In this document: one piece after another, positions 1,395-9,900 of the stretch
Layout: each line of letters begins with the position of its first letter
How positions within the stretch are numbered: position 1 is the first letter of the stretch
From: Bifidobacterium moukalabense DSM 27321
Lineage (GTDB): Bacteria > Actinomycetota > Actinomycetes > Actinomycetales > Bifidobacteriaceae
Length of the DNA: 64,000 nt
Assembly: GCF_000522505.1 (NCBI RefSeq)
Contig: NZ_AZMV01000007.1
Location: 186,001-250,000 of the forward strand
Direction of reading: 5' to 3'
The notes under the pieces: generated by a model
What the model was told of the DNA's origin: nothing
What the model saw: only the letters and a program-made list of their open reading frames with translations
The model's database searches: none
Translations under genes and position numbers: made by a program

Positions 1395-1761
1395 GCCCCT
1401 CAGCCTAATTTTCGTGTGCGACCGAGGGGAGTACACCCTCCGCTTTTTCCCCTTTCCGCGTAGGATACATACGAATGGATTACGAGATATTCGGAAATAT
1501 GGGGGTATAGGAATATATGCTTGGCGTGGTGTCTTGCGGTTTGCCGGGCCGTTGGCAGGTGTGCCCGATTCGCGGCTCGAATCTGCTATTCCGTCCCTTT
1601 GTCTTGCCCTTGCCCGCCTTGATTCGTTTCGCTGTAAGAAAGGCGCGGCCATGTAGGCGGCGGAGGCGGCCAGAATATTGCGTGGGGGCTATAAAGAGGG
1701 TGTCCGGAAGAATCCCCCCGATACAATTCGGCGTATTACAACCACATAAGGGGGTCGTTGT
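1395..1761. other. Intergenic region, divergent promoters of antiporter and pilus regulator
   Basis: No convincing gene is seen. The stretch separates a minus-strand antiporter from the plus-strand pilus locus, so it should carry two divergent promoters. It contains an AT-rich part around 1480-1520 (GATATTCGGAAATATG) and several runs of five or six C or G. The last one, at 1750-1754, is AAGGGGG, which can act as the ribosome binding site of the small leader frame that starts at 1762. Confidence 0.5.
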
Positions 1762-1857
1762 ATGAGAATATCTTCTTGGGGGGCTTTTCGTAGACATATG
1801 CGGTTCGCGGGCGGCCTTACGGGTCTTGCTGTGGCGCTCGAGCAGAAGCGGCAATGA
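1762..1857 (+). CDS. Possible leader peptide with G6 tract, overlapping the HTH gene start
   Basis: ATG at 1762 sits 7 bases after AAGGGGG and opens a 31-codon frame, MRISSWGAFRRHMRF..., with no family resemblance. Codons 6-7 lie in a run of six G (1778-1783). The frame ends with TGA at 1855-1857, which overlaps the ATG at 1854 of the HTH gene as ATGA, the classic layout of translational coupling. By hand, one extra G gives a stop after ten codons, and one fewer G moves the stop to about 1870, inside the HTH gene. The peptide itself may have no function; translation through it could control the next gene. It could also be a chance frame. Confidence 0.4.
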   Translation: MRISSWGAFRRHMRFAGGLTGLAVALEQKRQ

Positions 1858-2339
1858 TGATCGACGGTAAGTTCACTGCCAAGGAGCGCGCCTATCTGGC
1901 CAGTCTGCCCGCGGTCAAAAGCGTCAGCGCCTCCCATATTCGCTACACCGACCAATTTCGGGTCGAATGCATGTGCCGTTACGACGCGGGGGAGTCGCCC
2001 ACGTCCATTTTCCGTGAGGCCGGCCTCGACCCGAAGCTCATCGGATACAAGCGTGTGGAACGTTGCATTTCCAGATGGAAGCGCCGGCAGGCCAAGAAGG
2101 CGAAATCCGGCAAGCAAACCGATTCGTACGCCTTCGACGCCGATGGTTTGCAGGTATTGGAGCATAAGGACCTTACGCAGCCAGAATGGGGGGCATCGAA
2201 TGCGGACGATCCCGAGGATGGCCTGTCGCAGATGGCGAAGGCTCAGCTGGCCATCAACGAACGTGATCTACTGATTGCGCGGCAGGCGTTGCGTATTGAC
2301 GAGCTGGAGCGTGTATTGCGGCAGCTCGTCATAAAATAA
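1854..2339 (+). CDS. Small helix-turn-helix protein, probable pilus-locus regulator (left copy)
   Basis: 161 residues. The N-terminal 75 residues form a predicted HTH of a type common in Firmicutes and Actinobacteria: YTDQFRVECMCRYDAGESPT, then IFREAGLDPKLIGYKRVERC and ISRWKRR. The C-terminus, about residues 125-161 (ERDLLIARQALRIDELERVL), looks like a short coiled coil, suggesting dimer formation. A paralogue with the same two-part layout lies at 9319-9900 on the other side of the pilus genes. The start is one of two adjacent ATGs (1854, 1857). The ribosome binding site is weak, which fits coupling to the upstream frame ending at 1857. The sortase gene follows after 64 bases, so co-transcription is likely. 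The regulatory role is inferred from position and fold; the DNA target is unknown. The HTH also resembles the small standalone domain found near IS3-type transposases, but no transposase is present. Confidence 0.7.
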   Translation: MMIDGKFTAKERAYLASLPAVKSVSASHIRYTDQFRVECMCRYDAGESPTSIFREAGLDPKLIGYKRVERCISRWKRRQAKKAKSGKQTDSYAFDADGLQVLEHKDLTQPEWGASNADDPEDGLSQMAKAQLAINERDLLIARQALRIDELERVLRQLVIK

Positions 2340-2403: not shown

Positions 2404-3453
2404 ATGCGGAAGTCACGATATGAGACATTGCATATTGAGGATGTGATGGAAACGGAAACGGCGGGAACGGGCTGGCGCCAGCCCGCATTCGATGAGGTGA
2501 TCGACGTTTCCGATGAGATGCGCATGCGCCGCAGGAATAGTCGCAGCATACACATGATGTATGCGGTTGGCGCGTTGCTGATCGTCGCCGCAATCTGCAT
2601 TGGCGGTTTTCCGGCGGCATTGCAGTACCGTTCCGCGATGGAGTTGTCGCGTACGTCGTCGCAATCCGCACGGACGGTTGCGAATTGGCCGTATCCGCAG
2701 GCGGATGATGCGTTCGCCGCGGCGGAGGAATATAACGAACGGCTTGCGACCTCGGGGCAGCCCGTTCTGGGTGAGGCGAAGGATCCGTTCGCTGCGATTC
2801 AGGGTGGCTCGCAGGCCAGCGAGACGGATGACGATGACAGTAGCGCGAGTTCCGAAGACGAGGAATATCAGGGATTGCTGGATTCCGGCGGCGGAGTGAT
2901 GGGCACCATTCGCATTCCGAAGATTTCGGTGAAGCTGCCGATCTACCATGGTACGTCGCAGTCCGCGCTGGCCTCCGGTGCGGGTCATCTGTATGGCAGT
3001 AGCCTGCCGGTGGGGGGAACGAGCACGCATGCCGTGATCACCGGGCATCGCGGGCTGGTGAACGCCGCCATGTTCACGCGGCTCGACGAGATGCGCGTCG
3101 GCGACTATTTCTATCTCGACGTGATGGGCCATACGCTCGGCTACCAGGTGGACCGCATTTCCGTGATCGAGCCGAACGATACGTCAAAGCTGAAGATCGT
3201 GCCCGGTGAGGATCGCGTGACGTTGATGACGTGTACGCCGTACGGCGTGAATACGCAACGTCTGTTGGTCTCCGCCGTGCGTTCGTCGATTCCTGACGTG
3301 ATTCCCGCCGAATCGGACGCGGCGAAGGATGCGCGATCGATAGCGATCGCCGCTGCGGTGGTGACGTTGCTGTTGGGGTTGGTGCTGCTGTGGCTGCGCC
3401 GTCGGCCGTGGCATATCCGCAGGCATGCGGCCCGGTGGCCGAAGCGTGGATGA
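2404..3453 (+). CDS. Class C (pilin-polymerising) sortase
   Basis: 349 residues from the ATG at 2404, which has GGAGAG six bases upstream; a TTG at 2344 in the same frame lacks such a site. One membrane segment lies near residues 59-78 (MYAVGALLIVAAICIGGFPA) and a second at the C-terminus (IAIAAAVVTLLLGLVLLWL), the two-anchor layout of class C sortases. The catalytic domain shows the His in VITGHRG (residue 215), the Cys in TLMTCTPYG (residue 277) and the Arg in NTQRLLV (residue 286). An acidic Ser-rich stretch (about 135-155) precedes the catalytic domain. The enzyme should cleave LPXTG-type signals of the two following pilins (LPFTG and LPLTG) and join them into a covalent fibre at the outer membrane face. 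Here the sortase gene precedes its pilin genes. Confidence 0.93.
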   Translation: MRKSRYETLHIEDVMETETAGTGWRQPAFDEVIDVSDEMRMRRRNSRSIHMMYAVGALLIVAAICIGGFPAALQYRSAMELSRTSSQSARTVANWPYPQADDAFAAAEEYNERLATSGQPVLGEAKDPFAAIQGGSQASETDDDDSSASSEDEEYQGLLDSGGGVMGTIRIPKISVKLPIYHGTSQSALASGAGHLYGSSLPVGGTSTHAVITGHRGLVNAAMFTRLDEMRVGDYFYLDVMGHTLGYQVDRISVIEPNDTSKLKIVPGEDRVTLMTCTPYGVNTQRLLVSAVRSSIPDVIPAESDAAKDARSIAIAAAVVTLLLGLVLLWLRRRPWHIRRHAARWPKRG

Positions 3454-3721: not shown

Positions 3722-6700
3722 ATGAAAGACATACGCGAACACCAGGTGAGGCCAAAGGGGAACTTGGCCAAACGAATCATCGCCGCAATCGCCGCAGTCG
3801 CCATGCTCGGCGGCGTCGGCTACGCCACCGCCACCACTGCCGTGGCGGAGGAGGAAGCCGGCACCTTGGCGACGGAGTCGTTTATGGGTACCACCGTTGG
3901 ACGTGAATGGATCCTTCTCAATGATGCGTGCTTGACAGCTGGCGGAACTCAAGGATGTACGGCCAAAAGGAAAGCCAATGGTGATAGCGGAATCTACAAC
4001 CAATCGAATGGTTTGCTCCAGCTGACAGGAGATGTGAACGATGCCACCGGCGGTGCGGTGTTTAACCACCAGCTTGATACTTCTCTCGGCTTGGACGTCA
4101 CCTTCTACCAATATCAGACTGCACGCTCCTCGGGAGCTGATGGCATAGGCTTCTTCTTGGCCGACGGCAATCAGGAGCTGACGACAACCGGCGCTAGTGG
4201 TGCAGGTCTGGGATACGCCAATACCCGTGGAGGCAGTGCACCCTCCGATGGCCTCTCTGAGGGCGTACTCGGTCTTGGATTGGATGTTTACGGTAATTTC
4301 GCAAATGATACGGATTGGGTAGGTGGAACGGATTGCACGCAATATCGATCTGGTCAAATTTCGAATAGTGTCGTTCTGCGTGGTGCAGGTAACGGCTCTA
4401 CGGGCTACTGCAAGGTGACGGATGCGAAAACGTATACCGGACTTACGACGAGCAAGGCGCCGCTGGTCGGCAGTAGCTATACGGACGGGGCTGATGGCGT
4501 TAAAGTTCGGATCATCATCTCTCCTCAGAAAACGAGTGCTGACGGTACCGTGACGGAATACTCCAAGGTTACCGTCATCGTCGGCGATACAACGATTTAT
4601 AACAATGTTGAGTTGAACTATGCTCTGCCAGCCACTGTCAAGATGGGCTTCTCTGCATCCACTGGTGGTTCTAAGCAACCACACTATATTCGTGGTGTTC
4701 AAGTAAAGACCGTGGAAGCAAGCAACGGCATCATGCTCAGCAAATACCACGACACGAAGAGCAAGCAGTACAAGGTCGCATATGCCGAGGGCGACAAAGT
4801 CCCGTACTCCTTCCTCATTACGAATAGCGGTACGCAGAATCTGAGCACTGTGACTTTGACGGATACCAATGCCGATGAGGGCTCCCTGACCTGTACGCCT
4901 TCTTTGCCGGCAGCGACTTTGGCGCCTACAGCGACCATTCAATGCACTGCGACCCATACATTGACGGAAGCAGAGGCTGCTCAAGGTTCGTTCACGAACG
5001 AAGCTTCTGCAAGTGGTGTCGCCAGTGGCTCCACACTGACCGCGAAGGATTCGGCAACGGTTCCCACGATTAAGCCACTTGCGGCCCCCGATCACACGAA
5101 GTGGATAGTCAAAGACGCCTCTTCCGAGGGCGACGGTGATCAATACACGTTGAACCTCAACGTGACCGGGAACAACTCCGAAACCTCAATCGCTTCCGCT
5201 ACACCGGCTGATGTCATTCTGGTAATGGATAAATCCGGCAGTATGGAGGGTAGTCGGGATACAAATTCGCAGACTGCCGCAAATGCACTTGCTAAAAAGT
5301 TGCTGACTACGGCGAATTCTTCGCTTGATCCGAGTCTGCAGGCTCAGATGGCCGTGGTCACCTTCAGCGACAAGGCTACAGTAAAACTAGACGGGAAGTT
5401 TACTACTTCAGCTGATGCCATTGCGTCCGCCATCACAGATACCCCTAATGGTGGCACCAACTGGGAGGACGCCCTAAAGAAAGCCAATGGTCTTTCTTCC
5501 GGTCGTGCAGGAGTGAAGAAGTACATCATCTTCCTGTCTGATGGTAACCCGACCTTTCGCGTAACTTCGTATGGAGGATGCTTCCATCATAATCAGTATG
5601 ATTCAAAATATACAACGCAAGAAGCGTGTGAGGCTGCCTCATCGCGGCGGGATACCTATAGCTGGAAGACAAATCCGGATGATAAACGTTCTGACGGCGT
5701 ACATGGTCATGGTGATTCGGATGAATACGGATTTAACTATGCGGCTGCTTTAGCTGAGGCAAACAATCGCGGCAAAGCGGCACTATATGTGGTGAAGACC
5801 TCGAACGACGCTAATAAGATGACTAATCTTGCGTCTGACGCCAAGGCCGTCACAGGTAAGGAGCTTGATGGCACCACTGCCACAAATCTGACAAACGCAT
5901 TCGAGCAGATTTACTCCAGCATCACCTCAACATCAAAGGTCAAGGTCTACTCCATCACGGATACATTGACGCAATGGGTCGATCCGGTTGATTTAACTGA
6001 TGGAGATGTCACTGACAAGGTGACGGTGACTGCACCTCAAGGTAAGGCCACACCTAGCTATACAGCTACGTATGTTGAATCAACCAGGACCTTGACGGTA
6101 AAATTCACTGACGGTGTTGAAGCCGGAGCGGCTGATACGTACGGGGTGTCATTCAAAGTCAAGCCGAGCGCACAAGCGTATGCGGATTATGCGACGAATG
6201 GACAAACATATCCGGATGTCGCTGATGATGGCACCAGTGATAAGTCGGAGACTGTCACCAACGACGAAGGCAAACATATTGGTTACTATTCCAATACAGC
6301 AGCAAAGCTGACCTATTGCATCGTCACTACAGTTGGGAATCAGGAATCTGCTTGTACGGAAAAGACCGTTGACTATGGCAAGCCAGTCGTAAATGTCAAG
6401 CTTGGCAAGATCACAATCACCAAGCAGTGGTCGGACGGTAACGGCAAGCATGCTAATGATTCTGTGACGGTTCAGCTTCAACGTACGGCAACCGGTGTTG
6501 AAGGTGCAACGGCTGAGTCCGTTGGAAACGAATTGACTCTCAACGCGGAAAATAAGTGGACCGCTGAGGTTGACAACCTGCAACCGGGCTACACGTATTC
6601 CGTGGTGGAGACTTCGGGCAACGATCGCTATGACGTCACTTATAGCGACGGCCAGGATTTGACCGAGCAGATGGTGTGGTCCTCCAGCGATGATGCGGGA

Positions 6701-7300
6701 ACGCTGAATGCGACCGTCACCAACACGTTGAAGCAAGTCACGTTGGAGAACCTCGTTTCAGTGAAGAAGAATCTGGCTGGTCGCGCATGGACGGCAACCG
6801 ACAAGTTCGACTTCACGTTGGAAGCAACGGACGGGGCGCCTTTGCCGGAAGTCTGCCAAAACCAGCAATCATGTGAGGTGTCGGTGAAATCCGATTCCGC
6901 TAGCTACGCTGCGGCGTTCGGCAACATCACCTACGACGCAGGCGAAGCCGAGTACACGTACAATGTGACGGAAAACAAGGGCTCCGCCTCCGCAATGCAC
7001 TATTCGAAGGCGAAGTATGAAGTCGTGGTGACCGTTGCAAAGAGCACTGATGGCGAGTGGAACGCTTCCGTGTCATCCGTGACCAAGGTGCTTGACGATA
7101 ACGGTAACTCGGCTTCCGAGAAGCAGGACGTCTCTGATCCTGTCACCTTCACCAACCACTACATCCAAGTGTCCGTGTTGCCGTTTACCGGCGGCACGAC
7201 GGACCGCCAGTGGCTGCTGGTCGGCGGCGGAATCGCCGGAATGGCGGCGCTGATGATCGGCGCGGCTGGAATCTGGCGCGGTAAGAAGCGTCTCGTCTGA
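3722..7300 (+). CDS. Large sortase-anchored pilus tip adhesin with lectin-like and VWA domains
   Basis: 1192 residues; ATG at 3722 follows AAGGGGACG. A signal peptide ends near residue 45 (TTAVAEEE). Residues about 50-330 resemble an L-type lectin-like fold (FYQYQTARSSGADGIGFFLA; EGVLGLGLDVYGNF). Residues about 360-450 form a DUF11-like repeat (PYSFLITNSGTQNLSTVTLT). A VWA domain starts at 497 (DVILVMDKSGSM) with MIDAS residues D503-x-S505-x-S507. About 895-985 is a Cna-B type domain, and about 1010-1145 an isopeptide pilin-type domain. The sorting signal LPFTG (1153-1157), a membrane segment and RGKKR close the protein. It most likely sits at the fibre tip and contacts host or mucus glycans. 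The central part is visibly richer in A and T than the two ends, as if the adhesive head had been exchanged. Ligand unknown. Confidence 0.9.
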   Translation: MKDIREHQVRPKGNLAKRIIAAIAAVAMLGGVGYATATTAVAEEEAGTLATESFMGTTVGREWILLNDACLTAGGTQGCTAKRKANGDSGIYNQSNGLLQLTGDVNDATGGAVFNHQLDTSLGLDVTFYQYQTARSSGADGIGFFLADGNQELTTTGASGAGLGYANTRGGSAPSDGLSEGVLGLGLDVYGNFANDTDWVGGTDCTQYRSGQISNSVVLRGAGNGSTGYCKVTDAKTYTGLTTSKAPLVGSSYTDGADGVKVRIIISPQKTSADGTVTEYSKVTVIVGDTTIYNNVELNYALPATVKMGFSASTGGSKQPHYIRGVQVKTVEASNGIMLSKYHDTKSKQYKVAYAEGDKVPYSFLITNSGTQNLSTVTLTDTNADEGSLTCTPSLPAATLAPTATIQCTATHTLTEAEAAQGSFTNEASASGVASGSTLTAKDSATVPTIKPLAAPDHTKWIVKDASSEGDGDQYTLNLNVTGNNSETSIASATPADVILVMDKSGSMEGSRDTNSQTAANALAKKLLTTANSSLDPSLQAQMAVVTFSDKATVKLDGKFTTSADAIASAITDTPNGGTNWEDALKKANGLSSGRAGVKKYIIFLSDGNPTFRVTSYGGCFHHNQYDSKYTTQEACEAASSRRDTYSWKTNPDDKRSDGVHGHGDSDEYGFNYAAALAEANNRGKAALYVVKTSNDANKMTNLASDAKAVTGKELDGTTATNLTNAFEQIYSSITSTSKVKVYSITDTLTQWVDPVDLTDGDVTDKVTVTAPQGKATPSYTATYVESTRTLTVKFTDGVEAGAADTYGVSFKVKPSAQAYADYATNGQTYPDVADDGTSDKSETVTNDEGKHIGYYSNTAAKLTYCIVTTVGNQESACTEKTVDYGKPVVNVKLGKITITKQWSDGNGKHANDSVTVQLQRTATGVEGATAESVGNELTLNAENKWTAEVDNLQPGYTYSVVETSGNDRYDVTYSDGQDLTEQMVWSSSDDAGTLNATVTNTLKQVTLENLVSVKKNLAGRAWTATDKFDFTLEATDGAPLPEVCQNQQSCEVSVKSDSASYAAAFGNITYDAGEAEYTYNVTENKGSASAMHYSKAKYEVVVTVAKSTDGEWNASVSSVTKVLDDNGNSASEKQDVSDPVTFTNHYIQVSVLPFTGGTTDRQWLLVGGGIAGMAALMIGAAGIWRGKKRLV

Positions 7301-7447: not shown

Positions 7448-9001
7448 ATGAAGATGAGGAAACTTTTCGCCGGCATCGCCGCAGCTGCGACCTTGCTGGG
7501 TGGCATGGCCCTGGGTGCAACCAGTGCTCAGGCCGACACCGCGACGGCAACATTCACCTTCACGGCTGAAACTAAGGATCAGCTGACCAACGCTAACCTG
7601 ACCGCGTACAAGATCGGTGATTACGTTACCCACGGCTCTGGTACGGATGTCGTCTATAGCGTTGCCACGAACACCGCTAACAAGGTAGCGGTGGATTCCG
7701 CTTTGAAGACGGCCGGATATACCACGACGACTCAGGATAACCTGGCTGCCGCCTTGAACGAAGGTTATCTGGATATTTCCGCCACCCGTCCGTGGGCCAC
7801 GAATGCGACAAGTGGCAACGTTACCCGTAACTTCGCCGAGGCGCTTGCGTCCGAAGGCAAGCTGACGGGCGGCGAGACGGTCACGCTAACCGAACCGACT
7901 GGTTCTGACCAGAGCGGTTGGTCCGCCACTGTGGACCTTGAGCCGGGCATCTACGTGTTCATCGATAAAGCTGAAGAGACAGAGACCGGTACTGTGACCA
8001 AGGCCGTTCCGATGATCGTGGCTTCCGGTACCGTCGATGCAGAGAAGAAGCAGCTGACCGATCCGGTAATTGGCGACAATACCGTGAACATGAAGAACAG
8101 CAAGAGTGAAGACAAGACCAAGACAGTCGACAAGATTTCTGCCGCCATCGGCGACACTCTGACCTACACTCTGACGGGTAAGATTGCGAACCCGGCTCCG
8201 TCCGCGTTCAAGTTCACCGATACGCCGGGCACTGGTCTGACCATCAAGGCCGGTACCTTCAAGTTCTTCGCCGATGGAACTGCAGTCTCCGCGGCTGACT
8301 TCACTGTTCCGTCTGCCGACGTGACCGGTAACGGTACTGCCACCTTCGACGTGGTTGTGAAAGATCCGGCCAAGTATGCCGGCAAGACCATCAAGGTCAC
8401 CTTCAATGCTGTGGTGAACGACGATGCCGACGTTGAAGACGGTGTTGTCAACGAACTCGACAACTACGGCACCCCTGTTCAGGTTACGACCAAGTTTGTC
8501 GGCTTTGACTTCATGAAGATCGATGCGGATGACCAGGGCATCGAAGGTGCCGAATTCCAGGTTCTGGACGGAAACACCACGCTGTACTTCGTCAAGCAGG
8601 AGGACGGTTCCTACAAGAAGGCCGCTTCCAATATCACCGCCAAGGCCACCAACACCCTCATATCTGCCGCTGACGGCACCGTGAAGGTCACTGGCCTTGA
8701 CGCAACGAAGACCTACACCGTGAAGGAAACCAAGGTTGCCACCAGACTGTTCCTCGACTTCAAGCCGAGCTTCACCGTCACGTTTGCAGATGGTCAGGCT
8801 GTCCTTGCGAAGACCAAGGCTTCAGATCCATATGACCTGGTCAATACCACCGACAAGACCGTCTTGAACGTGAAGTCCGTCACCCAGCTGCCGCTCACCG
8901 GTGCCGCGGGCACCGCACTGTTCGCTGTCGTGGCGCTGCTGCTAGCCGGTGCCGGCGCGACCGTGGTGCTCAAGGCCCGTTCCAAGAACGCCATGGCCTG
9001 A
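7448..9001 (+). CDS. Major pilin subunit (shaft protein) with LPLTG sorting signal
   Basis: 517 residues; ATG at 7448 follows AGAGGGGATTCTC. A signal peptide ends near AQADT (about residue 30). The middle is a beta-sandwich-like region (FKFTDTPGTGLTIKAG). From about 353 to 440 a Cna-B domain carries the start motif FDFMKIDADDQGIEGAEF and the E-box-like YTVKETK; the Lys and Glu in such domains usually form an internal isopeptide bond. The sorting signal LPLTG (481-485), a membrane helix and a basic tail KARSKNAMA end the protein. A candidate pilin Lys lies in NTVNMKNSKSED. Together with the sortase and the tip protein this forms a complete two-component pilus. A strong terminator follows directly, so the operon ends here. 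Confidence 0.92.
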   Translation: MKMRKLFAGIAAAATLLGGMALGATSAQADTATATFTFTAETKDQLTNANLTAYKIGDYVTHGSGTDVVYSVATNTANKVAVDSALKTAGYTTTTQDNLAAALNEGYLDISATRPWATNATSGNVTRNFAEALASEGKLTGGETVTLTEPTGSDQSGWSATVDLEPGIYVFIDKAEETETGTVTKAVPMIVASGTVDAEKKQLTDPVIGDNTVNMKNSKSEDKTKTVDKISAAIGDTLTYTLTGKIANPAPSAFKFTDTPGTGLTIKAGTFKFFADGTAVSAADFTVPSADVTGNGTATFDVVVKDPAKYAGKTIKVTFNAVVNDDADVEDGVVNELDNYGTPVQVTTKFVGFDFMKIDADDQGIEGAEFQVLDGNTTLYFVKQEDGSYKKAASNITAKATNTLISAADGTVKVTGLDATKTYTVKETKVATRLFLDFKPSFTVTFADGQAVLAKTKASDPYDLVNTTDKTVLNVKSVTQLPLTGAAGTALFAVVALLLAGAGATVVLKARSKNAMA

Positions 9002-9075: not shown

Positions 9076-9318
9076 TGTATTGGGATCAGCAAGGTATTTG
9101 CGGTATACGATTTCCCATCACACTATGTTTTTTGGGGGAATAGAGTTCGATTCACGGGGGTGTGAACCGGCGAAATGGCGAGAATATGCGGAAAGGAGAC
9201 TCCACGGGGGGTTGGTGTGGAGGGGAGAAAAGCGGGGGGTATTGCGTGGGGAACAGGACGTAGAATCGCAGGCAATCCACGGCGTAAGGGTGGACGGGGC
9301 GTTATACGGAAGGCAGGA
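9076..9318 (+). promoter_or_regulatory. G-tract-rich leader of the second HTH gene
   Basis: No assured gene. Runs of G occur at about 9134-9138 (after six T), 9156-9160, 9206-9211 and 9234-9239. Two overlapping frames stay open here. One, usable from ATG 9125, runs through the tracts and stops at the TGA at 9320-9322, overlapping the HTH ATG (9319) as ATGA. The other is in phase with the HTH gene from ATG 9175 and would add 48 basic residues. Slippage in any tract would swap these frames. The layout mirrors the leader of the left HTH gene. Confidence 0.45.
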
Positions 9319-9900
9319 ATGACGATGGTGCGGGGCGGCGGATCGTTCAGTAGCGAGGAAATCCAGCTGTTACGAGGGTTGGCGGCGGTCTCCAACGTCA
9401 CACAGGACCGCATCACCTACTCCGACACCTTCAAACAGGTATGCACCATCCGCTATCTTGCGGGCGAATCACCGACCAAAATCTTCCGCGAAGCGGGGCT
9501 GCCGCCGGACCTCATCGGCTACAAGCGCATCGAACGCAGCGTGGCACGCTGGAAGGCGGCCGCCATCAGATCCGTGAACGGCAACGGCAACATGAGCGAC
9601 AGTGAAGTCATCGCACAGCTTGTTGAACGGTACAAATGCACGCTGGTGACGCGGCAGAACCTTGATAGCGTCGCAGAGAACATCATCGGAACGAACATCG
9701 ACGCAAACACGGTCGCCGACGGAGCCGAACCCCCCTTGAAAACCGAGCAGACATTAAGCATCCAAGACGACGACGCAGAGGCGGCGGATGTGATTGACGC
9801 CAAGACGGCCTGCATCATCATCAAACAGCAGGCCAGACGCATCGACGAGCTCGAAAAGGCCAACGAGGCGCTCCGCAGGCAGATCGCCGGCTCCGACTGA
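9319..9900 (+). CDS. Small helix-turn-helix protein, probable pilus-locus regulator (right copy)
   Basis: 193 residues from ATG 9319, preceded by AAGGCAGGA. An in-frame ATG at 9175 would give 241 residues, but the added part is basic, Gly-rich and unlike the paralogue. The HTH (about residues 15-80) closely matches the protein at 1854-2339: ITYSDTFKQVCTIRYLAGES, then PTKIFREAGLPPDLIGYKRI and ERSVARWK. The C-terminus (IIKQQARRIDELEKANEALR) is again a coiled-coil-like segment. The middle differs in length and sequence, so the two copies may recognise different partners or sites. It is separated from the pilins by a strong terminator, so it needs its own promoter. Role as a pilus switch is inferred from the bracketing position only. 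Confidence 0.65.
   Translation: MTMVRGGGSFSSEEIQLLRGLAAVSNVTQDRITYSDTFKQVCTIRYLAGESPTKIFREAGLPPDLIGYKRIERSVARWKAAAIRSVNGNGNMSDSEVIAQLVERYKCTLVTRQNLDSVAENIIGTNIDANTVADGAEPPLKTEQTLSIQDDDAEAADVIDAKTACIIIKQQARRIDELEKANEALRRQIAGSD

Follow-up and report, generated by a model that had tools for sequence, protein, structure and literature searches.

Phase variation by slipped-strand mispairing in poly-G or poly-C tracts is known from Neisseria, Campylobacter, and Helicobacter, and tracts of this kind have also been described in Gardnerella, a genus related to Bifidobacterium. In the part of the Gardnerella study covered here (PMC11287997), 8 bp is named as the length likely to slip, and one tract was shown to vary by Sanger sequencing. 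Most of the G/C tracts are found no further than 300 bp upstream of open reading frames (ORFs), similar to the tracts described below, whereas the proteins named are surface proteins, and the term helix-turn-helix (HTH) occurs 0 times in that text. In Bifidobacterium itself, a replication-slippage switch of the sortase-dependent pili of B. breve has been described (Penno et al., 2022; PMC9187656). According to the sections of that paper considered here, a G11 tract of B. breve was mixed (37% G11, 59% G12, and 3% G10), and a G10 tract was already 93.4% uniform. According to its Table 1, there are tracts near 629,858 and 2,144,867 in B. dentium NCTC11816 and at 2,194,167 in B. pseudocatenulatum DSM 20438. 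For B. dentium Bd1, the accessible part of an earlier study describes the pilus cluster 142-144 with a pilin motif ending in GDNTVNMK (Foroni, 2011), and a 2025 paper on B. dentium, as far as it was accessible, refers to poly-G stretches for pilus clusters in its Supplementary Table 4 (PMC12104195). A tract in the leader of a regulator gene was not found in the accessible open-licence literature, and the Supplementary Table 4 just mentioned may include the locus. For phase variation of bifidobacterial HTH proteins or regulators, only the work of Penno et al. and papers citing it were relevant by title in the open-licence literature, and nothing relevant, by title and start of the abstract, was found there for leaders or upstream ORFs that combine a homopolymer with translational coupling.

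The locus compared here is located in a 64,000 nt stretch of the genome of B. moukalabense DSM 27321 (the window), and all its features given below are on the plus strand. A gene for an HTH protein of 161 aa (1854–2339; Pfam HTH_Tnp_2, PF20310, 27.4 bits at a cut-off of 23.8; no match in NCBIfam) is directly followed by a sortase gene (2404–3453, alternative start TTG at 2344; Pfam Sortase, 94.2 bits), a gene for a large pilin/adhesin with VWA, FctA, and Cna_B domains (3722–7300), and a gene for a backbone-type pilin with an LPXTG anchor (7448–9001). As judged by eye, a pilin of the window also ends in GDNTVNMK. A sortase-like ORF is found 3' of the HTH gene in all 12 of the left-type orthologues, that is, the orthologues of this gene; this ORF is only weakly sortase-like in L018 and, in L019, spread over two frames. 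Downstream of the pilin genes, at about 9322–9900, there is a second HTH gene, and the genome has nine places of the HTH family at an E value of 0.001 or better. The locus shares with the B. breve system, in its part described above, the genus, a poly-G tract on the coding strand, a pilus gene cluster, and a strong start with few codons before the tract, as well as a downstream expression that would depend on tract length. The difference is that the B. breve tract joins the signal peptide and the body of the first pilin, whereas the window tract is not inside the first pilin gene; it is located in a separate leader ORF before the HTH gene, and the pilin genes start at 3722 and 7448.

This leader ORF (uORF; 1762–1857) comprises 31 codons and would encode MRISSWGAFRRHMRFAGGLTGLAVALEQKRQ, followed by the stop codon. 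It is preceded by the ribosome site AAGGGGG (1748–1754), contains six G at 1778–1783, that is, six codons into the leader, and ends in an ATGA overlap (1854–1857), in which the ATG of the HTH gene (1854–1856) overlaps the TGA of the leader (1855–1857); a second ATG is present at 1857. A sequence-only reading of the window had described a leader of 31 codons that has its own ribosome site, and the sequence agrees with it to the base for the G6 and the overlap; only the ribosome site had been given too narrowly, because 1750–1754 covers just the five Gs. The frame shifts that it had derived by hand were borne out as well. With seven G, the leader stops after 10 aa at a TAG (1791–1793), and with five G it encodes 35 aa and stops at 1868–1870, past the HTH start; eight or four G lead again into the same frames as seven and five G. 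The TAG at 1791–1793 also closes the HTH frame upstream, so that small changes in tract length cannot join leader and HTH gene in the window genome. The arrangement resembles translational coupling at ATGA or TGATG motifs in its stop-start overlap, its strong upstream site, and its weak downstream site; in the window, however, a leader of 31 codons with a G-tract takes the place of a conserved upstream gene.

All pairing energies refer to the anti-Shine-Dalgarno sequence. The uORF site pairs with −9.7 kcal/mol, a value reached by 0.7% of 2,000 random window positions. The HTH start, in contrast, pairs with only −2.2 (ATG 1854) or −3.8 (ATG 1857), and −2.2 is reached by 43% of random window positions. 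The HTH-start sites of the 11 other left-type orthologues range from −6.5 to −12.5, and the window value of −3.8 falls among the weakest 5% (mark at −4.6) in a set of 96 family loci, for each of which the best-scoring start was chosen. Thus, a stop-start overlap coincides with a downstream site far weaker than the upstream one, and the HTH start, with hardly any ribosome site to itself, would rely on stop-start coupling. It speaks against this explanation that the uORF arrangement is not unique to the window locus. Altogether, 11 of the 96 family loci, including the window, contain an ORF that ends near the HTH start and begins behind a ribosome site of −8 or better, so that such an ORF is by itself not proof of coupling. 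Ten of these 11 loci, all but the window, have a good HTH site alongside.

Upstream of the uORF, TACAAT (1722–1727) is a candidate −10 box at a position common to the relatives, and belongs to a block (CGATACRATTC / CGATATGATTC) that can be aligned between the leaders of L001, L009, and L011 to L015. It is a candidate only, because no sigma-70 promoter with 9 of 12 matches was found on the plus strand of 1395–1900. The leader contains no terminator, the sole terminator-like site of 1395–1900 being at 1424–1440, upstream of the leader, and no significant RNA structure was found in three stretches of the leader (z-scores 0.69, 0.25, and 0.03). A leader-peptide attenuator was therefore rejected, as the leader lacks a terminator and its RNA folds no better than shuffles. 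Further upstream, a G5 (1501–1505) is a possible counterpart of the G11 found at about −192 in L011 to L015; by eye, its flanks are like those of the relatives (aatATGGGGGtata versus ttttATG-G11-taatt), in a region where the alignment is weak. The window contains six plus-strand G6 runs, five of which are between 1.7 and 9.3 kb. Besides the leader tract, G6 runs are found inside the HTH gene (2188–2193), inside the sortase gene (3012–3017), and, twice (9206–9211 and 9234–9239), just before the second HTH gene or within an extended N-terminus of it. In an apparent B. ruminantium counterpart of that second HTH gene (L182, assigned by eye), a G9 inside the gene puts the C-terminal coil motif out of frame.

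Taken alone, the window observation is weak; the relatives alter the picture. The closest orthologue (L009, in genome G028) is 84% identical, and its leader, when aligned to the window leader, has a G11 at the position of the G6. What goes beyond chance is this homologous G11 together with the combination of a strong uORF site and a weak HTH site. As sequenced, with 11 G, the G028 leader encodes 26 aa and stops 37 nt before the HTH gene. With 12 G (or 9), it encodes a peptide like that of the window and has the same end at the ATGA, and with 10 or 13 G it is open into the HTH frame, giving 200–201 aa. We regard G028 as B. dentium because two of its tracts (629,859–629,868 and 2,144,869–2,144,883) are located within two bases of the B. 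dentium NCTC11816 tracts of Penno et al.; in general, tracts of G028 and of another genome (G060) are within a few bases of the Table 1 entries in the part of that paper considered here. The two tracts are 10 and 15 nt long in G028, versus 10 and 13 nt listed for NCTC11816 in that part, and the difference of 15 versus 13 fits variation or an assembly error. The G15 tract (L183) is associated with a pilin. The HTH-leader tracts of G028 (173,280) and G060 (109,914) are absent from that Table 1. Based on the length measurements in B. breve, a G6 should hardly vary, and a G11 should. Only two tracts in the window genome reach 9 G or more, with lengths of 10 and 11, and, because its assembly contains such tracts, the short ones are probably real. 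The same contrast is seen at a second HTH leader of the window genome, where a G5 (L046, G000:C7:380760) occupies the position of a G11 in G028 (L052, G028:356713), with the flanks CCCCGAAATCGGGG.

The hosts assigned to the orthologues include B. thermophilum, B. sp. N4G05, B. catenulatum subsp. kashiwanohense, and B. ruminantium. Tracts of G11 (L011, L012, L014, and L015) or G13 (L016) are found at about −183 to −196, L010 has a G11 at −269, and in L017 and L018 no G run of 6 or more was detected. The contig of L019 terminates in a G22, and that of L013 ends at the expected place of the tract, so that assemblies may tend to break at this position. Orthologues from the catenulatum-like, angulatum-like, and ruminantium genomes have the tract at about −180 to −200, without an evident ribosome site before it and 5' of the block with the candidate −10 box. 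A tract within a leader ORF is known from only two species, those of the window and of G028; in both, the strong G-rich site of the uORF is as far from the box as the HTH site is in the other orthologues. It thus looks as if, in these two lineages, the leader had been inserted between the ribosome site and the HTH gene. A scan of genome contigs yielded 7 loci, none of them from B. dentium or the window species, in a set from which near records may have been left out, and the uORF had 0 matches in viral contigs.

To describe the HTH family more generally, we used a set of 97 HTH loci, 37 from searches and 60 hand-picked among the matches listed, with further matches of the 12 left-type genomes and nearly all of G055 left out. 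Within 330 nt upstream of the HTH gene, sense-strand runs of 8 or more G occur at 19 of the 97 loci. The idea arose from the left-type orthologues, which make up 12 of the 97 loci and 8 of the 19 leader tracts; among the 85 other loci, 11 have a leader tract. A sense run inside or shortly behind the gene is present at another set of 11 loci, giving 30 of the 97 in all, and antisense runs were found just once in each of the two intervals. By distance, 19 of the upstream sense runs are located between −250 and −1, one between −500 and −251, and none between −1500 and −751. Downstream, there are none at 0–249, six at 250–499, five at 500–749, and none at 750–1499. The 12 genomes with a left-type orthologue contain 104 tracts of 9 or more G, counted with a pattern that requires a non-G before the run and thus misses the G22 at the contig end in G069. 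Ten of the 104 precede an HTH place on the same strand by no more than 330 nt, compared to 0.037 expected under uniform placement, with 60 of the 63 HTH places used (the three weakest were dropped) and with orthologues that are not independent; two further tracts lie within an HTH gene. The tract-bearing loci differ clearly in type and comprise pilus clusters, a gene before a mechanosensitive-channel-like ORF, and a gene overlapping a Wzz-like ORF, the latter two names being given by eye. A sortase- or pilin-like ORF is present in the flanking sequence covered for 47 of the 97 loci, including 9 of the 19 with leader tracts. In L153 and L155, which have G9/G10 leaders, the end of the HTH gene overlaps the start of the Wzz-like polysaccharide gene (by eye), and L167 contains a leader segment with G11 and G10 (−241 and −64) twice around an N stretch, perhaps a duplication or an assembly gap.

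In ten genes, the tract is located inside the ORF, and in three more it lies 212–215 nt behind the stop codon. The intragenic tracts are often found between the HTH domain and a C-terminal coil motif (RDLLIAQQ-RRIDELE). Eight genes have the tract before this motif, which is in frame in four of them (L026, L033, L145, and L173) and out of frame in the other four (L136, L163, L181, and L182), in which the gain or loss of a single G would bring it back into frame; in L139 and L140, the tract follows the motif. Among the leaders, the orthologous L179 and L180 have G11 and G9, respectively, with otherwise similar flanks. The family combines long sense tracts concentrated at its genes with both frame states, and, at the level of sequence, the frame states within genes and the difference in leader length are marks of slippage switches. 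These findings bear on two further claims of the sequence-only reading. Its proposal of a slippage switch governed by tract length keeps its ground insofar as the tract is at a place that can set the leader stop, with a G11 in G028 and a different outcome for each length class, and insofar as G-tracts recur before and within genes of the HTH family; the six G of the window, however, are probably too short to slip often. Likewise, the tract is indeed not in the regulator itself in the window, but other family members carry it inside the gene, and in G028 two of the three frame classes are of consequence and one fuses the leader to the regulator.

Several other explanations have to be weighed. 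The leader ORF and the G6 might be incidental, in which case the HTH gene would be weakly translated with the site it has, and the G6 would be an ordinary run of a leader rich in G. G6 runs are common. No G run in the window is longer than 6, and isolated G6/C6 runs are rarer there than expected by chance (10 observed versus 21.7 expected). In 44% of mononucleotide shuffles of 1784–1853, the frame from 1762 still reaches the ATGA, and the differences from the nearest relative behind the tract (6, 5, and 8 at codon positions 1, 2, and 3) have no codon-position pattern, so that the leader peptide is without a sign of selection. The lack of significant RNA structure (z 0.69) also agrees with an incidental leader. 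However, a strong uORF site next to hardly any HTH site, the G11 in the nearest relative, and the recurrence of tracts in the family are left without a reason, and we consider this explanation unlikely, though not negligible. An even smaller chance is given to ribosomal or transcriptional slippage at the G6 producing a fixed fraction of shifted products. The sequence G-GGG-GGC is able in principle to slip, but a −1 shift would meet the TAG at 1791 and a +1 shift would pass the HTH start, neither of which would give a useful product, and the pairing of G11 and G6 between the species would not be explained; this seems very improbable.

The tract might also act on the DNA or on transcription, via promoter spacing or the binding of a regulator, with its location in an ORF being secondary, and this may hold for relatives in which the tract is about 190 nt upstream. 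In most family members, the leader tract is indeed not inside a well-started ORF, and in L036 a G13 at −77 forms the spacer of TTGACG-17-TATTCT, a fit that 0 of 300 flank shuffles equalled. L036 is thus a possible promoter-spacing switch before an HTH gene, to be treated with care because it is the only clear fit in 20 tracts and hence 20 tests, and the promoter spacer was rejected as a general role of the leader tracts. The best fit in L009 was 5 of 12 (p 1.00), and the window tract is behind both the candidate −10 box and the uORF start, so that a role in transcription is rather improbable for this locus. We assign a similarly low probability to ordinary intragenic phase variation in the B. 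dentium lineage, in which the leader ATG would be the true HTH start and 10 or 13 G would give an extended N-terminus. The open frame of 200–201 aa in G028 is in line with it, but the TAG at 1791–1793 shuts the fused frame in the window, and the N-terminal extension is not conserved.

With moderate confidence, we favor the explanation that the leader feeds ribosomes to the HTH start by coupling at the ATGA and that the G6 is a switch held in the ON state that rarely changes. Translation of the leader would use a strong site that would otherwise belong to the HTH gene, and ribosomes that terminate at the ATGA would go on to initiate the HTH gene by stop-start coupling. If a G were gained or lost in replication, the leader would no longer stop at the HTH start, and the tract would in this way set the level of the HTH protein, which is encoded by the first gene before the sortase and the pilins and may control them. 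The B. dentium lineage would have a long, slippage-prone tract at the same place of the leader. As in classical slipped-strand phase variation, the relatives have, at surface-structure loci, homopolymers of at least 8 in the leaders or the genes; the window differs in that its tract is below the about 8 bp of such loci and in that the proposed route is via a leader coupled to a regulator. Because the window tract is six G long and its frame ends at the ATGA, the switch is most likely held ON and seldom altered there. Points against the favored explanation are that six G are fewer than in tracts known to slip often, that an open frame with the ATGA is not improbable by chance, that the peptide has no codon-position signal, and that a tract inside a leader ORF is present in two species only, with no long tract in L017 and L018. 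With six G against eleven in the nearest relative, the window tract would be a shortened, probably fixed copy of a slippage switch present at many genes of this HTH family in bifidobacteria, either inside them or in front of them.

Slippage at pilin genes is already known in bifidobacteria, and the interesting part is the wider pattern at the genes of HTH regulators. We tentatively propose that a poly-G switch may operate on a family of HTH regulators of bifidobacterial surface loci. In B. dentium, it would have the form of a coupled leader with three settings modulo three, namely, native HTH protein by coupling, N-terminally extended HTH protein, and OFF, and the window would contain a shortened, locked copy. 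If this is true, the regulator switch would be a level above the structural genes, so that one tract could alter a whole surface locus, and surveys limited to the first pilus gene would miss such switches.
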